DNA of 64,000 nucleotides from positions 1-64,000 of the forward strand of contig JAIXMN010000026.1 in assembly GCA_025716815.1 (NCBI GenBank), read 5' to 3'. Of the stretch, positions 8,441 through 35,009 are shown in pieces. A program made the position numbers and the translations under genes. The notes beneath the pieces were generated by a model that saw only the letters and a list, made by a program, of their open reading frames with translations, was not told the DNA's origin and did no database searches. Numbering within the stretch: the first letter of the stretch is position 1; each line of letters opens with the position of its first letter. The DNA is from Dichotomocladium elegans. Its lineage: Eukaryota > Mucoromycota > Mucoromycetes > Mucorales > Lichtheimiaceae.

Positions 8441-8644
8441 TGGGGAAGACGAATTGAACAGAAAAAAAAACGAAAAACCTCGTCCATTTTTTACGAATTC
8501 AACTGCCGCTGGCGGCCAAATTCGGCGCTGCAGGTTGCCAACAACCGAAGCTTCTATGCCCAATTCCCTTTCAACAATGGCCGACTAAAAAACACGGTGA
8601 CGAACAACTAATCCTTAAGGCAAAATTCTTCTTGAAAATCCTGT
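8441..8644. repeat. right-end remnant of an element related to the MITE family
   Basis: The stretch ends ACGAACAACTAATCC...AATTCTTCTTGAAAATCCTG just before a TA at 8645-8646, matching the MITE right terminus. A second matching block, AAAAAAACGAAAAACCT, lies at about 8462-8480, with unrelated sequence between. The left end is missing. It abuts LINE copy 2 exactly where an uninterrupted LINE (14378-14379) has a TA, so this is an insertion boundary. It could be the right end of a longer, possibly autonomous, relative. Confidence 0.55.
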
Positions 8645-8732
8645 AGAAGGAGTGTATGTTAGGATGTTTTCAATACGATGCCGTTGTAAGCCATTGGCAT
8701 TCCAAATAGTAATAGTTATGTTTTATAACATA

Positions 8733-9098
8733 CAGGATTTTCAAGAAGAAGTTTGCCACAAATTTTAGTTTTTCGTATAGACCATCTAGGTTTTTCGTTT
8801 TTTTTTGCTTCAAATTCGAATACCAATTTTAGTACTTCGTTGCTACCCTTTTGTCAAATTTAAAGGCAATAGTAGCAAGAACATTTCAATCAAGGCTATA
8901 GGTGAGTCTTCCTTCTCTTCTTTTTACACCAGAATAATTTTGGGAGGCCAACCATTTATGTTTCATTCTAATTTCAAAGGAAGAAGAGAAACGAAATACT
9001 AAAATTTGTATTCGAATTTGAAGCCAAAAAAAACGAAAAACCTAGACGGTCAATACGAACAACTAAATTTTGTGGCAAACTTCTTCTTGAAAATCCTG
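8733..9098. mobile_element. MITE copy 2, at LINE copy 2 ORF2 start
   Basis: 366 bp, termini CAGGATTTTC and GAAAATCCTG, TA on both sides (8731-8732, 9099-9100). The target TA lies in TTATG of the ORF2 start; in LINE copy 1 the equivalent site is uninterrupted (about 14466). Confidence 0.9.
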
Positions 9099-9101
9099 TA
9101 A

Positions 9102-10741
9102 TTATTGACTATCGGGGTTGGGGGTGGTGCGAGATGAAGATGAGCCAGAGACAGACATGAGTTCGTCGTCAATGGGTGTGGAGCTGTTTTGTGTGCCCTC
9201 GACGTCAACGTTCATCGGGGCTTCGGTGACAAAAGGATTGGCGGTGGTCGCGGCAGTGGTGCGTTTTGTGTTGGGGGCGGACAGGATTTCTTGAAGATCT
9301 ACATGGGTAAACCATCCGTTAGCAGTGAAGGCTCTGGCAACGGCGTACTTAACTGGCGCGCGAATGAAATCGACGGCCTTAAGAAGCTGTTGCTTGTGTA
9401 GTTCGGCGGCCTTTTCGCGACGCTCCTCCTCAGAGAGTGCCGCGAATTTGGGGTCACGGAGGTGCTTTGGATCACGAGGATCAAAGTCCTCTATCACCAG
9501 GATCCGGTGCTTGGCCAGTAATGTGGTAAACTCCTTCACATAGTCATTATGAAGGAGGATAGCCACTACCTGTCGATCGGGGTAATGCACATCTAAAATC
9601 CGTGCATTGTCAAAGCCGAGTTTGCGCAGACGGGTACGGAGCTCCTTGGTCGGCAGGCGGAATTTGCTCGGAATGTATATATATTTGAAGCCTTGCTCGT
9701 CCGAAGCAAAGCTAAATACACGCGAGATGGCAGCAGCGCGGCGGGGGGACAGGATCCGTTTGTTCTTCGTTGTGTGTGGGGACTTGGCTTTTTGCACACG
9801 ATCCGCCCAGGTGAGTGGCGCAGGGGCAGAGGTAGCTTCGGTGGTGAGTGCGGCGGTGGCATACCGAGATGCCGCAGTGCCAGTCGGTGCATCCAAGGGG
9901 TTTTTGACATTGTCATTGGCCGGAGCGTCCAATTTAAGCTGCAGTGCAGCTATCGTAGCCTCTGCATTGGCGAGTTGGTTCTTCAACTGCTGGTTCTCAG
10001 CAAGCAGGGATTCAAGCTGGTCCACCCAACGGCGGGTGGTATTAAGCTCCTCCATGATTTTTTGCATGAAGTCGGGGAGGGCTTCATGGTGCTCAAAGAT
10101 GAGCGGGGCCGAGTTTGTGGCCGAGGTCTCCAAGATGGATTCGATGGTATCCATCGCGTTGCTGGGAGGTGGGAGGGCAGGCGCGGGGGCCGGAATCGAC
10201 TCCAACGAGGTGCAGGCTGGGGCAGACGTGGCATGGGCTGCAAGCAGCTTCTCCATAGCCTGGAACGTGTAGGTCGTGTTGCACTTACACTTGTACTGCG
10301 GGCGCGGGGGAGTGGTTTTGCTGCTGCCGTTCTTCCGTATCCCATTGGGGAGGTGGCACACGGGGCAGACGAGTTCCTGGCGTACTTTTCGGAAAAGGGC
10401 CTCGTGTTCTACAACCATAGTTGCAGCGGAGAAAAATTTTTGGCTTTTTGCACAGCCGTTGCAGTTACTTTTTCTTTTGACGCAGCCCCCATTTCAAAGG
10501 TAAATTGGAACTCGGTCTGGGACTGCAATGTCGGGGATCGAGTAGCCGAGACGCGGTTCTTTTTAATCTCGGGGAGATGTGATGGGCGGACTGAGGTGGT
10601 CGACAAACAGCGTTTACTGATTCCGCTGGTGATGGGGATGCGTGATGTTCGGGAGTTGTGCAAAGTCGAAGGGGCGGCCGATTGGACTTGGGATGTTCCT
10701 TCTGGTGATCGCGATGAGGATTCCTGCGCTATGGGGTGCAC
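9102..10741 (-). pseudogene. LINE ORF1 (copy 2), frameshifted
   Basis: The product begins at the ATG at 10741 (MHPIAQESSSRSPEG) and shifts frame near 10430, where copy 2 has GCAGCGGAG but copy 1 has GCAGCGGGAG, a one-base loss. Downstream it shows a zinc-ribbon-like cluster (CPVCHLPNGIRKN ... YKCKC), a Leu/Gln-rich coiled coil (LESLLAENQQLKNQLANAEA) and a conserved C-terminal domain with FDPRDPKHLRDPKFAALSEE. LINE ORF1 proteins coat element RNA. The nearly identical ends but diverged middle relative to copy 1 are unusual. Confidence 0.75.
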
Positions 10742-10843
10742 GTTTGGAGGTGTTGGTGGTGGTGTTTGAGATGTTATTGTTGCTGACGTCAGGGGTAAAC
10801 TATTAGCCGCCGTAAAAAAGTGTACGGCGAGTGAAAGAGAAGC

Positions 10844-10858
10844 GATTCCTTGGTGTAG
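10844..10858 (+). repeat. 15-bp tRNA-Val 5' fragment, left target duplication of LINE copy 1
   Basis: GATTCCTTGGTGTAG lies between the 5' end of LINE copy 2 and the 3' end of LINE copy 1. It matches the first 15 bases of the tRNA-Val gene (GGTTCGTTGGTGTAG, 16223-16237) at 13 positions. The simplest reading is a target duplication made when copy 1 inserted after base 15 of a tRNA gene. Confidence 0.7.
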
Positions 10859-11288
10859 ACAAAACAGTTTATTTTGAAAGAGAAGGCGGTATGGAACGTG
10901 TGCTCAATAAAGCGGTCGCTCTCGCCAGATCGACAAGGTGGCTGCGGCATGAAAAACCCAGAGTGGCTGGGAAAAATGAGGGGGCAAGAAGAAAAAGAAA
11001 AGAGAAAGAGATAAAAATGGGAACAATGGGGTCGACAAAAGTGGAGAAGAAGAAACTATCTAAAGGGGGAGTGGGAGTGACAACGAGAAAAGAGAGGGTT
11101 AGGGATCAAGAACGAAATCATCCAGAATTGCTTCGGTTGCATGAACAGGGACAGGACGCTCGAGCCACCGGAGAAGAGATCCGCCGAGATCGGGGTCTTG
11201 AGAGGCGGAGAAATCCTCGCCAAGATGACACGCCATGTCGACCTCTAAGAGGATCTGGCACACCACTGGCCAGGTACGTTGCCAGTAT

Positions 11289-14200
11289 TTATCGGGAGGT
11301 GGAGGTGATCTCAGAGCATGGCAGCTGGTTGAGGACCAATGAGAGCGGATCGCGATGATCATCATCATTGGCGACCCTCAACCGAGCATGCATGTTGAGG
11401 CAGAATATGAGGTGGCGGCGGCTTGTGTGGTCTTGCTTACACCGCACGGTTTAGGGCGGCCAGGGAGCCAGCCCATACGCCAGCGGATGCAGCGGCTGCA
11501 CTCCTTGTTGGTCATAGGCAGGTGCATGATAGGATCAATGCCGAGGCGCGGGCGGCAGGCGCTCAGGAGGATGGCGCGGGAGGAGGCGAGCTGGTCGATG
11601 AGGCGGGCTTGCAAGCAGCTGCGGATGGCACCTTTCAAGTCCTCTCTTGAGGCTTCATGCCTAGGACGAGAAAGAGCCACCCACACCGAAGAGCGATGCA
11701 ACTTCGGCCAAAGGTGTCTGGGCTGCTTGATGGAAGGAAGGAGGGCGGAGAGGAGGGTGTCGTCCGGCAGGTGGTATGCACGATGTACAAACTTTGCCTG
11801 GAGGATGGCGACGCGGTCGGCCATGTGGGGGAGGCGGGTGAGATGGCGGAAGACTGCAGTGGAGGCGGTCTTGTGTCCCCCAAAGATCATGCGGAGGCAT
11901 TGGTCTTGGGCCGCTCAAGAGTCTTGATGTCTTGGCGGGTGAGGTTGATCAGCGCCAAACCATATTCCATCTTTGGACGGATAAATTGCTGGTAGAGGCG
12001 GGTGGCGAGGAGGCGAGGGAATCCGTAAGGGCTGACGCCAATGGCGTTCAGCGTCCGCATTGACGTGAGGGCGGCGGTGGTGTTGTGGTGGAGGAGGGCT
12101 TGATGGTCGATCTGGCCAGCAGACGAAAAGGGAATCCCGAGGTACTTGAAGGAGTGGGATCTCGGGAGCTCCGTACCATAAAGGCAGAGGGAGGGGCGTT
12201 GGGCGGGAGCGTGGGCTGTTTCAAACAGCACCACGCACTTCGTGGGGTTCCACCGGTAGCCGAGCTGTATGCTGTGTTGTTCACAAGCAGAGAGAAGAGC
12301 AGGCATGGTAGACCATGATCCAATGAGGACCACGTCATCTGCGTACAGCAAGCAGTTAATCCGCTCATCACGCACCAAGAAGGCGGGGGGCATCTGGAAG
12401 TCGGCATAGTCGTCGTCCGGAGGAATATCACTTTCTGCAACACGAAGCAATCCTGGGAGGGAATTTATATACACGGAATAAAGAAAAGGGGAAAGAACAG
12501 AGCCCTGCAGCACACCTGTGACCGGTTCGAAGCGCCGTGATACTGTTCCTGACAAAAGAATCTCAACAAAAACATCGTTAAACATATTCTGTAGTAGGGT
12601 GAGAAGGGCAGGGGAGGCATAGGGTTCTAACTCATCCCAGACAACTGAACGGTCAACAGTGTCGTAAGCAGACTTGATGTCCAAGAATGCCAATACAGGA
12701 GGGGCGCCGTGGATGTTGGCGTGGAGGGTCGAAAGCTCGTGTAGGCAAAGGGCTTGGTCTAGCGTGCTGCGGTGGTGACGGAAACCGCCCTGGGCGATAT
12801 CCAGGTTGGGATATGCCATCTCGAGGGGATCCATGAGACAAGTCTCAAGAAGTTTGCGGAGAACGGAGGTCAAGCAGATAGGCCGGAAGTTGCCGGGGTC
12901 GGTTGTGGGGCCCTTCTTGTACAGGGGAATTGCTTGGGCAAGACGCCAAGCTGATGGAGTGGTACCCCACCGCCAACAAAGCTCAAAGAGCAATGTCAGC
13001 GTGGGGGCGAGGACACCAGACAGAGGGACGAGCATCTCGGCGCGCAGGTGGTCAGCCCCGGGGGCTTTACGTGGAGGCAGGCGGCCGAGTGCGTCTTCGA
13101 CAGCAGGAATCGTGAACGGGCAATCGTCGGTAAAAGGTGGGGTCGCGGCAGCGGGCAAGGGATCTTCATCAATCGGCGGCCGAGAAGATGACCAGCATAG
13201 ATCTGACCAAGATGGTCGGCCATCCGATCGGCAGCCACCTGCGGACCGCGAGGATCCACAAAGGTGGGATTGAGCCGTCGGTTACGTCTGATTTTGGAGA
13301 TGGTCGCGGTAGCTTTGCTGAAATCACCAGCAGCTAACCGGTCACAGAACTCACGCCACGTCTGACGACGACGCTGCTGGAGGGCGCGGCGGGCAAGGGC
13401 AGCAGCTTCTTGATAGGCAACCCATCGCGAAAGCTTACTAACACCATCCCGAGCACGGCGCCATTGGCGATAACATCTTTCACGGTTGTCCATGGCTTCT
13501 TCGAGGGCGCGGGACCAGAACCACTTGCAGGATCTGCGGGGCGGCGGGCGGGATCCGAGGCTGCTATCCAGGGCTTGGTAGATCGCCTCACACAGCTGGT
13601 CATGGAGTTGATCAAAATCGGGACGAAGATGATCTTCTCTAACTAGATCCGTCAGAGAATCAAGCAGAGGCTGGTTGAGCTCGGTGAAGAGCTGCACATA
13701 ATGTGCAGTCTTCTTTGGGTCTTCCAGCTTGCTTAAATTCCAAAGACGTCTAGTGTGCTGATTAGAGGGGGGTGGCTCGGTGGTGGGTGCTGCAAAGGTG
13801 AGATGCACCATCTTGTGATCGGAACCAATCGATAAGTCGTCCCGGACGTCGAGATGCGGGTCGACAAGAGGTGCGGAGCTCAGGAACCAGTCGATGATGC
13901 TGGATCCCCGGAGTCGGAGATAGGTTGGCATACCAAAGGCGAGGGAGGCATTCCAATGGTAGAGGCCGTTGGCTTGGATCCACTCTAAGAAGAGGGTGCC
14001 GCGTCGGGTGAGTACATGGTCACCAACAAATCGGCCAATGCGGGCATTGAAGTCGCCGCAGAAGATGGTGTTGGATGTGTTGGGCCATGTGAGTGGTAGG
14101 TTGGCAAGGACGTCGAGGGCTTCGTTATCTGGGAGGGAGGGCGGGAGGTAGAGACAATGGATGAGAGTATCACAAAAAAGACAGGAGAGTACATAAGGTG

Positions 14201-14465
14201 AGTCGGAAGGGATGGAAGTTACTTGGTAGGGGCAGTCGGGATTTACTAAAAGCGAAATACCCATGCTGCCTACGAATGCGTTTTCAAGGCGGCGACCATA
14301 GATATGGTGCTGTTGCCAGGATGTGGGATATGAATGAGGGGAAAGGAGCCAAGTTTCGGTGATAAAGAGAAGGGATGTAGAAGGAGTGTATGTTAGGATG
14401 TTTTCAATAAGATGCCGTTGTAAGCCATTGGCATTCCAAATAGTAATAGTTATGTTTTTTAACAT
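11289..14465 (-). pseudogene. LINE ORF2: APE endonuclease and reverse transcriptase, frameshifted
   Basis: The N-terminal 230 residues form an APE-type endonuclease: ITIWNANGL, FITETWLL, FCGDFNARIG and IGSDHKMVHL carry the expected Asn, Glu, Asp/Asn and Asp/His residues. A basic linker leads to reverse transcriptase with FRPICLTSVLRKLLE, FLDIKSAYDTVD, GVLQGSVLSPFLYS and the active site LLYADDVVLIG. A C-terminal Cys/His knuckle (C-x-C ... RRHLIFC) lies near 11380-11445. One-base frameshifts occur near 13160, 11910 and 11445. No RNase H was seen. The enzyme nicks the target and primes reverse transcription there; the apparent tRNA-gene target suggests a site-specific endonuclease. Confidence 0.85.
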
Positions 14466-14467
14466 AA

Positions 14468-16120
14468 TTATTGACTATCGGCGTTGGGGGTGGTGCGAGA
14501 TGAAGATGAGCCAGAGACAGACATGAGTTCGTCGTCAATGGGTGTGGAGCTGTTTTGTGTGCCCTCGACGTCAACGTTCATCGGGGCTTCGGTGACAAAA
14601 GGATTGGCGGTGGTTGCGGCAGTGGTGCGTTTTGTGTTGGGGGCGGACAGGATTTCTTGAAGATCTACATGGGTAAACCATCCGTTAGCAGTGAAGGCTC
14701 TGGCAACGGCGTACTTAACTGGCGCGCGAATGAAATCGACGGCCTTAAGAAGCCGTTGCTTGTGTAGTTCGGCGGCCTTTTCGCGACGCTCCTCCTCAGA
14801 GAGTGCCGCGAATTTGGGGTCACGGAGGTGCTTTGGATCACGAGGATCAAAGTCCTCTATCACCGGGATCCGGTGCTTGGCCAGCAAGGCAATAAACTCC
14901 TCCACATAATCATTGTGGAGAAGGATAGCCACTACCTGTCGGTCAGGGTAATGCACATCCAAAAGACGTGCATTATCACATCCAAGTTGACGTAGACGTG
15001 CGCGGAGATCCTTGGTCGGGAGACGGAACTTGCTGGGGAGGTACACGTACCGGAAACCTTGGTCGCCAGAGACAAAACCAAATACCCGCGAGAGTGCAGC
15101 AGCGCGGCGGGGGGTCAGGATCCGTTTGGACTTTTTCGTGGGGGAGGGCGAGCCGTTCTGCACACGGTCTGCCCATGTGAGTGGCGTGGGTTCGGCGGTG
15201 GCGTACTTTGAGGCGGCGGTGCCAGTAGGAGCATCTAAGGGCACTTTAACGTGCAGGCCGACCTCATCTTGAGACTGCACGCCTAATTGGCGCTGCAGAG
15301 CAGCGATCGTGTTCTCCGCAGCAGCGAGCTTGTCCTTTAATTGCTGATTTTCAGCAAGGAGCGACTCGAGCTGGTCGACGCGGTGGCGGGTGGCATTGAG
15401 CTCTTCCATGATTTTATGCATAAAGTCTGGAAGGGCTTCATGGTGTTCGAAAACAAGAGGGGCAGACACGGCAGCAGGTGGTACCATGGTAGGATCGTCC
15501 ATGGCCATTTGGTTACTGGAAGGCGTGTGGACTGGCACCGGAGCAGGCAAAGGGGCGGGCACAGGGGCGGGCACGGGCTCCAGTGGGGCACTGGGAGCTT
15601 CAGCAGCTACATGCGCAGCGAGTAGCTTTTCCATGGCAGAGAAAGTGTAAGTGGTGCCGCACTTACACTTGTATTGTGGCCGAGGGGGGGTTGCCTTGTT
15701 ACTGCCGTTCTTGCAAATCCCATTGGGGAGCCGGCACGTGGGGCAGACGAGTTCCTTGCGCACTTTGCGGAAAAGGGCCTCGTGTTCTACAACCATAGTT
15801 GCAGCGGGAGAAAAATTTTTGGCTTTTTGCACAGCCGTTGCAGTTACTTTTTCTTTTGACGCAGCCCCCATTTCAAAGGTAAACTGGAACTCGGTCTGGG
15901 ACTGCAATGTCGGGGATCGAGTAGCCGAGACGCGGTTCTTCTTAATCTCGGGGAGATGTGAAGGGCGGACTGAGGTGGTCGACAAACGGCGTTTACTGAT
16001 TCCGCTGGTGATGGGGATGCGCGATGTTCGGGAGTTGTGCAAAGTCGAAGGGGCGGCCGATTGGACTTGGGATGTTCCTTCTGGTGATCGCGATGGGGAT
16101 TCCTGCGCTATGGGGTGCAC
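14468..16120 (-). CDS. LINE ORF1 protein (copy 1), intact
   Basis: 550 residues. Residues about 1-110 are Ser/Thr/Pro-rich and low in structure. Residues about 115-160 hold a Cys cluster (CPTCRLPNGICKN...YKCKC) that looks like a zinc ribbon. An Ala/Pro-rich linker follows. A coiled coil (VDQLESLLAENQQLKDKLAA) lies at about 240-280, then a conserved basic domain (about 330-470) that may bind RNA, then a Ser/Thr tail. The stop is followed by two bases and the ORF2 ATG (TAATTATG), suggesting termination-reinitiation. Expected role is a nucleic-acid chaperone packaging LINE RNA. I cannot name a domain family for the C-terminal half. Confidence 0.8.
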   Translation of the reverse strand: MHPIAQESPSRSPEGTSQVQSAAPSTLHNSRTSRIPITSGISKRRLSTTSVRPSHLPEIKKNRVSATRSPTLQSQTEFQFTFEMGAASKEKVTATAVQKAKNFSPAATMVVEHEALFRKVRKELVCPTCRLPNGICKNGSNKATPPRPQYKCKCGTTYTFSAMEKLLAAHVAAEAPSAPLEPVPAPVPAPLPAPVPVHTPSSNQMAMDDPTMVPPAAVSAPLVFEHHEALPDFMHKIMEELNATRHRVDQLESLLAENQQLKDKLAAAENTIAALQRQLGVQSQDEVGLHVKVPLDAPTGTAASKYATAEPTPLTWADRVQNGSPSPTKKSKRILTPRRAAALSRVFGFVSGDQGFRYVYLPSKFRLPTKDLRARLRQLGCDNARLLDVHYPDRQVVAILLHNDYVEEFIALLAKHRIPVIEDFDPRDPKHLRDPKFAALSEEERREKAAELHKQRLLKAVDFIRAPVKYAVARAFTANGWFTHVDLQEILSAPNTKRTTAATTANPFVTEAPMNVDVEGTQNSSTPIDDELMSVSGSSSSRTTPNADSQ

Positions 16121-16222
16121 GTTTGGAGGTGTTGGTGGTGGTGTTTGAGATGTTATTGTTGCTGACGTCAGGGGTAAACTATTAGCCGCCGTAAAAAAGT
16201 GTACGGCGAGTGAAAGAGAAGC

Positions 16223-16296
16223 GGTTCGTTGGTGTAGTTGGTTATCACACCTGTCTCACACACAGGAGGTCCTCGGTTCGAGCCCGAGGCGAACCA
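16223..16296 (+). tRNA. tRNA-Val (CAC)
   Basis: The cloverleaf folds. Acceptor GGTTCGT pairs with GCGAACC, the anticodon stem CCTGT/ACAGG encloses loop CTCACAC (anticodon CAC), and the T arm contains GGTTCGAGCCC. The discriminator A is at 16296 and TTTT follows at once as a pol III terminator. LINE copy 1 ends one base upstream, and a gypsy LTR starts about 8 bp downstream. Confidence 0.93.
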
Positions 16297-28171: not shown

Positions 28172-28361
28172 GAGAGCTTATTTTGTCATGGACGCGCCCA
28201 ATCAAAGCATTAGGCGGTCACAAAATAAATGAAGGTTCAAGCCCAGAAATCCAGGCCGACGTGAAAACCTTCGATCCGAAACCGAAACCGAAACCTTGGA
28301 TACTGCGCGAATATTCTAGATGTTGGCTGCACAACAACCACCTCATACACCAATCAGTATG
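28172..28361. other. unassigned 190 bp between tRNA-His and element D'
   Basis: No gene, LTR or repeat recognised, apart from a short CCGAAACCGAAACCGAAACC run near 28277-28296. Confidence 0.5.
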
Positions 28362-34755: not shown

Positions 34756-35009
34756 GATGTCCTTTTTCTAGAAGAGTTGACATGACATGACTGGTGTGGT
34801 GGGGAAGTGATTGTGGAGCAAGTTCTAGAAGATGCCAGGAAGCGCGATGGCATTTTAGCTTCCGAAAGGCACGTGAAAAGAGGGATGTTTGGTATCACGT
34901 GCTTCGAATTGAGCGCTTGGGCAGACCAGGATTTCTGGGCTTGAATCTTCGCCTTGATTTGGAAGTCTTGGAGCCAAAACTCTGTTCGTCCACGACATAA
35001 CAAGGTCTG
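34756..35009. other. unassigned 250 bp upstream of tRNA-Asp
   Basis: No gene or shared repeat recognised. It is the 5' flank of tRNA-Asp and, unlike the 3' flank, holds no recognisable insertion. Confidence 0.5.

Follow-up and report, generated by a model that had tools for sequence, protein, structure and literature searches.

How can a retrotransposon settle repeatedly inside a transfer RNA (tRNA) gene and leave the gene complete? The question is raised by a 64,000-nucleotide stretch of Dichotomocladium elegans DNA (the window; the first 64 kb of contig C42 in an assembly of 39.4 Mb and 122 contigs), in which a tRNA-Val gene carries a long interspersed nuclear element (LINE) between its bases 15 and 16. 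Our answer, to which we assign a probability of about 0.92, is that a LINE lineage with an apurinic/apyrimidinic endonuclease (APE) inserts between tRNA bases 15 and 16, in the middle of the A box and antisense to the tRNA, and rebuilds the gene in doing so. The position, orientation, duplication, truncation and stacking of the copies, as well as the rebuilt genes, are directly visible in the sequence. The locus consists of the following parts.

16223-16296, plus strand: complete tRNA-Val(CAC) gene, restored upon insertion (ARAGORN)
16223-16237, plus strand: downstream copy of the target block, tRNA bases 1-15, GGTTCGTTGGTGTAG (sequence read)
10844-10858, plus strand: upstream 15-base block GATTCCTTGGTGTAG of the Val-AAC type, adjoining the LINE 3' end
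10859-16222, minus strand: LINE copy 1, 5364 bp, both ends present (5' end 16222, 3' end 10859)
14468-16120, minus strand: open reading frame 1 (ORF1), no Pfam family above the cut-off, weak zinc-ribbon match
12996-14465, minus strand: part of ORF2, endonuclease domain Exo_endo_phos_2 (Pfam, 5.2e-13)
11887-13158, minus strand: part of ORF2, reverse transcriptase RVT_1 (Pfam, 3e-26)
11378-11890, minus strand: C-terminal piece of ORF2 in another frame, without a Pfam match
9099-10843, minus strand: LINE copy 2, 5' part only, 3' part lost, 5' end abutting the block at 10844; 84% and 93% identity to copy 1 in two pieces
8642-8732, minus strand: detached piece of copy 2, 98% identical to copy 1, split off by an inserted element

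Re-reading of the junctions upheld the original prediction that copy 1 is flanked by two 15-base tRNA-Val blocks with 13 of 15 bases identical, the downstream block being the start of the tRNA found by ARAGORN; the same tRNA-Val(CAC) stretch, read in L009, scores 58 bits with Rfam RF00005. On the 10844 side, GAGAAGC is followed by GATTCCTTGGTGTAG and then by the LINE 3' end, ACAAAACAG; on the 16223 side, GAGAAGC is followed by GGTTCGTTGGTGTAG, which runs on as tRNA-Val(CAC). The frames for reverse transcriptase (RT) and endonuclease are on the minus strand, so that the LINE has its 5' side toward the tRNA, as had been proposed. The blocks are only 13/15 alike because one is of the Val-AAC and the other of the Val-CAC type, GATTCCTTGGTGTAG being identical to bases 1-15 of tRNA-Val(AAC) at other loci. 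Copy 2 does meet the upstream block through the same GAGAAGC junction, ending at 10843; its 628-bp alignment with copy 1, block included, shows 93% identity.

Genome searches with the LINE 5' end plus tRNA and with the LINE 3' end gave 26 and 21 matches, respectively. Collecting all copies, as the original prediction had proposed, showed that they do not lie at random sites: 18 of the 21 Val-family 3' ends are preceded by a tRNA-Val-like block, either exact or with a few changes. A pattern for the tRNA-Val 5' region matched 12 times, with a LINE directly upstream in 10 cases (one of them, C101:516928, a tRNA fragment only) and two genes unoccupied (C46:495661 and C101:521508). Two copies inserted off target, one in C55 with the 15-bp duplication GTAATGGTCATGTAG on both sides and no apparent tRNA, the other in C1 with the 13-bp duplication AATAAAACATGTA on both sides, directly before a sequence that looks tRNA-Pro-like by eye. 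Both of these clean duplications hold ATGTA (ATGTA or ATGTAG) at the cut, which compares with TGTAG on target. Off-target copies with such duplications indicate that the enzyme, and not the tRNA, sets the spacing of the cuts.

Both ends could be paired for 14 Val-family copies, 2 to 6 extra bases at junctions being excluded. Identical 15-base blocks flank eight copies on target and identical duplications of 15 and 13 bp flank the two off-target ones, whereas three pairs agree at 13/15 and one at 14/15. The 13/15 pairs, the window included, combine blocks of different tRNA-Val types, and they do so in both directions, with an AAC-type block and a CAC gene in the window and with CAC-type outer blocks and an AAC gene in C59. 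Copies truncated at the 5' end to 254 bp (C33) and 286 bp (C59) keep their blocks, as target-primed reverse transcription (TPRT) predicts. Furthermore, two sequence types are mixed in mosaic fashion in the ORF1 and RT of the Val copies; the identity of these copies to the window copy shifts from block to block between about 70 to 85% and about 100%, in varied combinations. As the most fitting account of the 13/15 mismatch, Val-AAC and Val-CAC arrays would later have exchanged sequence through the LINE, by recombination or gene conversion. The proposal of two insertions at one point, each rebuilding the gene, was accordingly upheld for repeated insertion as such, which is seen at many loci and in sister families, but not as the full history of these two copies, whose 13/15 blocks of two isoacceptors require exchange afterwards. 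Similarly, a target duplication is visible for copy 1, but not for copy 2, whose 3' part is missing in the window.

Related LINEs occupy other tRNA genes. An RT search of the genome, with 99 of 159 candidates scored, yielded 124 matches, many of them 40 to 62% identical, and predicted LINE 5' ends, recognised by end motifs, were read in 57 short stretches. Ten of these had no LINE 5' end and were excluded (L068, L094, L096, L097, L106, L116, L117, L120, L122 and L123). In the remaining 47, the LINE 5' end abuts an intact tRNA (20), a tRNA prefix and then the next LINE (12), a tRNA-like block without a matching gene (5), another, non-tRNA target (8) or an interrupting long terminal repeat (LTR)-like element (2). 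The fixed site is thus shared by the sister families, with a tRNA start or prefix at 32/47 5' ends and a tRNA-like block at 5 more. Ten of the 20 intact cases had been picked with a nearby tRNA already known; among the other 37 informative stretches, 27 abut tRNA or tRNA-like sequence, 8 another target and 2 an LTR-like element.

Intact tRNAs (20): Leu-AAG, Ser-AGA, Phe-GAA, Lys-CTT (two), Thr-AGT (two), Thr-CGT, Ile-AAT (two), Met-CAT, Asn-GTT (three), Glu-CTC, Glu-TTC, Gln-TTG (two), Gln-CTG, Ala-AGC
tRNA prefix, then the 3' end of the next LINE (12): Ser, Gln, Glu (three), Asn (six), Lys

The LINE lineage is therefore not Val-specific; its sister families use many tRNAs, and tRNAs of twelve amino acids are targeted overall. 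The full duplication was found at two separately retrieved outer ends, one at Phe (GCCTTTGTAGCTCAG) and one at Thr (GCCCACTTGGCTCAG), both 15/15. From the tRNA side, an RNA family search, in which 63 of 1319 candidates were scored, so that it covers part of the tRNA genes, gave 59 tRNAs, 11 of which have an antisense RT match 2.8 to 3.0 kb away (among 30 hand-picked from the 124 RT matches).

Across nine tabulated target types, T8, A14, T16 and one further G are invariant and base 15 is always a purine; in standard tRNA numbering, all of them fall in the A box. Where junctions can be read, the cut follows base 15, within 1 to 3 bases in some families, and it is unambiguous in Val, Ser and Gln. 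Each family sits at one or a few tRNAs, and one of them occurs in near-identical copies at Phe, Thr and Lys, which suggests that the common A-box region is read and not the acceptor stem. The A box may thus be the feature that the LINE recognises.

The observations can be joined into one mechanism. The ORF2 protein would nick the sense strand of the tRNA gene after A14-R15, reverse transcription would be primed from the nicked 3' end by TPRT, and a second cut, made in the other strand some 15 bases off and facing the mature 5' end, would let fill-in duplicate tRNA bases 1-15. One 15-base copy adjoins the 3' end of the LINE, and its counterpart, continuous with the remainder of the gene, gives the complete tRNA beside the LINE 5' end. 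Bases 1-15 of tRNAs show no length variation, so that a fixed stagger from base 15 arrives at the mature 5' end, and this would explain why on-target duplications start at +1 and why rebuilt genes are complete despite differing acceptor stems. The rebuilt gene is a fresh target, and therefore copies stack, whether they belong to one family or to several. The cost to the host is probably low.

A complete tRNA at the LINE 5' end, present at 8 of about 20 Val-family ends read and in 20/47 sister stretches, could also mean that the LINE itself includes the tRNA and carries it along. We give this explanation hardly any credence. Near-identical elements stand at several tRNA species, which refutes it: the last 240 bp are identical in the Phe, Thr and Lys insertions (L077, L108 and L110), and the 3' ends of the Phe and Thr insertions do not differ over 335 bp. 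In an ungapped 240-bp comparison, two of six other insertions were fully identical (Phe and Lys) and the other four agreed at 119 to 206 of 240 positions; one of these four, a Thr insertion at C60, has RT DNA 99.9% identical to the C44 copy. Moreover, the sequence beyond the tRNA differs between most Val-family loci, a tRNA prefix lies on the far side of the LINE at the outer ends of arrays, and both the two LINE-free tRNA-Val genes and the two off-target copies with duplications of their own speak against a travelling tRNA. It is likewise very improbable that the arrays arose from one insertion through unequal crossing over or segmental duplication instead of repeated insertion. Exchange is indeed common, as the mosaic Val copies show, and C2 and C62, which have the same flank after the tRNA, may be duplicates of one locus. 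However, at tRNA-Asn two families are stacked with a tRNA-Asn block between them (C35, C68 and the right end of C13: L101, L114, L113 and L102). They are told apart by RT identity and by their 3' ends, and their representatives fall into separate, well-supported clades of the RT tree; such stacks are therefore not one insertion that was later duplicated. Short 5'-truncated copies within arrays (the C59 array has at least three Val copies and one truncated) and the many tRNA loci used point the same way. Arrays as duplications only were rejected on the mixed-family stacks, and the window blocks as a plain duplication on their two isoacceptor types.

More weight, short of making it likely, is due to targeting by way of TFIIIB or TFIIIC of the RNA polymerase III (Pol III) machinery, the route that has been proposed for Dictyostelium TRE5, in place of DNA recognition by the ORF2 protein. 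TFIIIC contacts the A box, the cut lies inside it, and many tRNAs are used. Against this stand the near base-level precision wherever junctions were read, the preference of families for particular tRNAs, the ATGTA before the cut in both off-target duplications and the family whose target has no tRNA, all of which bear on Pol III targeting indirectly.

Insertion by the LINE's own cut within the A box remains our preferred explanation, and several observations weigh against it. One sister family (RT 57 to 60% identical to the Val family) targets a non-tRNA sequence, with the same mode of insertion and the same stacking. The window blocks themselves match at 13/15 and not 15/15, some junctions have 2 to 6 extra bases, and the exchange invoked for such cases is suggested by mosaic copies. 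In the Asn, Glu, Phe, Thr and Lys families, the cut is ambiguous by 1 to 3 bases and could be later, because the LINE end matches the next 1 to 3 tRNA bases. Leu, Ile, Met and Ala are known from the 5' junction only, and the L082 Gln block has two bases unlike those of the intact Gln genes found. A diverged Val-family copy at C46:496434, of which only the 3' side was read, follows no tRNA-like block (...GATGATGAATAG). Finally, contig C97:1-33200 consists largely of six stacked RT-bearing LINE copies, with five junctions read, and its spacer block, typically GCCGGTGTAGTATAG, resembles a tRNA start and matches no tRNA gene found in the assembly; of two pattern searches for it, one gave no match and the other three one-mismatch matches, fewer than the reversed-pattern control.

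The non-tRNA target family is found in C31, C68, C43, C7 and C62 (L069, L072, L074, L075, L088, L089, L118 and L119). Its target in L069 resembles a hepatitis delta virus (HDV)-like ribozyme at 34.3 bits (E 0.044), below the Rfam gathering cut-off of 50. Genome-wide, 23 such sites (86 scored of 547 candidates) score 28.7 to 38.8 bits, all under that cut-off, and 4 of 14 control genomes gave matches as well; the ribozyme reading may be taken as a lead, not a result. The sites include six inverted pairs 10.6 to 12.8 kb apart. In the pair at C37:229700-240650, the only one with ends retrieved in full, the inverted ends are at least 912 bp long and 99.5% identical. The L069 target is 98% identical to the C37 end over 188 bp and is therefore the terminal repeat of an element of about 11 kb; L072, L074, L075, L118 and L119 carry a related target. 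Pfam searches with four ORFs of this element gave only matches below the cut-off. A fold of the LINE 5' end itself into an HDV-like ribozyme, judged by eye, was dropped, as the helix of the Asn family fails in the Thr family, and no Rfam ribozyme matched L084 or L009 at E values up to 1.

As for the elements themselves, ORF2 of copy 1 is broken into several frames; Exo_endo_phos_2 and RVT_1 were also found in the Val-family copy L127 (an open frame of 1123 amino acids) and in L128. ORF1 begins with a zinc-ribbon-like CxxC...CxC stretch (Zn_ribbon_10, E 0.034 and 0.076, below the cut-off), checked in the frame at 14468-16120 on the minus strand and in the copy 2 frame at 9102-10418, and a possible coiled coil follows; this part of ORF1 might bind target DNA. 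Copy 2 is interrupted at 8550-9098 by an element with inverted repeats, CAGGATTTTCAAGAAG ... CTTCTTGAAAATCCTG (by eye), and similar sequence occurs in L068, L116 and L117. Ten LINE 3' ends inspected by eye (window 10859-10880, L071, L076, L082, L087, L088, L089, L100, L101 and L125) lack a poly(A) tail and have AATAAA no more than about 23 bases from the terminus.

At the other end of the LINE, a conserved TATATAAAG...GACAAGGTCTC stretch precedes the tRNA in several families. Even families with distant RTs have a common pre-tRNA stretch, a TATA-like box followed by CGCGATGCTCGACAAGGTCTC or close variants (L077-L080, L083-L085, L105, L108-L112 and L115), which could act as a promoter of the LINE, as an upstream element for Pol III or as a signal in the RNA. 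LTR-like ends (TGTCGTGG or TGTCATGG, by eye) lie about 10 to 12 bp upstream of tRNA-Asp, tRNA-His and some LINE-flanked tRNAs; in the last case they sit within LINE 5' ends, both kinds of element using the same tRNA flanks.

LTR-like ends: window 34998-35009 and 28172-28183; L103; L121; C2:304230; C59:54791; C117:1350

The closest named RT relatives, among the 120 of 330 matches listed, are from Mucoromycota, with Lichtheimia ornata and Rhizopus at 55%, Absidia at 53%, Circinella and Mucor at 51% and Umbelopsis at 48% identity; over the assemblies of Rhizopus, Mucor, Lichtheimia, Circinella and Umbelopsis, the listed RT identities run from 44 to 55%. In the RT tree, Lichtheimia, Circinella, Mucor and Rhizopus sequences join different D. 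elegans LINE families with good support, and Umbelopsis falls near the Ala family; on this basis, the lineage looks older than its host. Single scans for relatives with readable flanks gave no match in viral contigs and 11 pattern matches in genome contigs, none of which was confirmed. The best relative of solved structure is a LINE-1 ORF2 protein (2.2e-11). LINE/L1 elements are reported in other Mucoromycotina (PMC7928374). Tentatively, and with more doubt than belief, one may picture an old, Mucoromycota-wide LINE lineage that radiated over the tRNA set by following the A box between isoacceptor groups. Each tRNA gene would be a self-renewing landing pad, the LINE 5' end would become its permanent 5' flank, and host tRNA expression would partly depend on LINE sequence.

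The strategy combines insertion within an essential kind of gene with a gene that stays whole and a site that can be reused. Related endonucleases that differ in tRNA choice and cut at one homologous base are suited to the study of how LINE specificity is gained and changed, and the same set is suited to gene insertion at harmless sites. The system also offers a test of tRNA gene function with a replaced 5' flank.

The tRNA-directed LINEs in the available part of the review PMC5911963 all insert outside the gene, 2-64 bp upstream or 40-150 bp downstream. For Dictyostelid elements, the upstream distances are 40-54 bp (TRE5), 39-64 bp (NLTR-B) and 2-6 bp (NLTR-A), and TRE3 inserts 40-150 bp downstream (PMC5911963, PMC5006619). 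Like TRE5, TRE3, NLTR-A and NLTR-B, the D. elegans LINEs are non-LTR elements aimed at tRNA genes, and they share with TRE5 the orientation opposite to the tRNA; unlike the Dictyostelid elements, they lie inside the gene at a single base position, and their duplication restores it.

Ty3-type LTR elements are integrase-based. They are tRNA-directed (PMC5911963) and insert upstream of the gene, unlike the D. elegans LINEs; the D. elegans LTR-like elements, which end about 10 to 12 bp upstream of tRNA genes, resemble them. In Rhizopus, LTR elements are described near tRNA genes (PMC2699053), and the accessible text does not place LINEs there. tRNA genes also figure among non-LTR targets in PMC8869645, inside or beside being left unspecified in the part at hand. 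Within the literature searched, which was available in part and did not extend to Repbase Reports or subscription journals, we came across no LINE that enters a tRNA gene and leaves it restored.

An R2 element disrupts the 28S gene into which it inserts. R2, Mutsu, Keno, Dewa and others target 28S, 5S and U2 genes and a tRNA-Leu spacer (PMC3706591), and the D. elegans elements are like them in being LINEs tied to one fixed site, within or next to a multicopy RNA gene. They differ in stacking through a rebuilt site, none being described for those elements, with their other genes or spacer, in the part of the source available. Dada DNA transposons are a further parallel, as their families are specialised on different tRNAs and several enter the A box at nucleotides 8-13 (PMC3706591, PMC8869645). 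Dada elements have a DDE transposase and duplications of about 6 bp, and disrupt the genes according to the authors (PMC8869645). The D. elegans elements share with Dada the specialisation by tRNA and the insertion into the A box; unlike Dada, they are APE-RT LINEs with duplications of 13 to 15 bp that leave a complete gene. Among site-specific LINEs, a renewable site inside a gene is an unusual feature.

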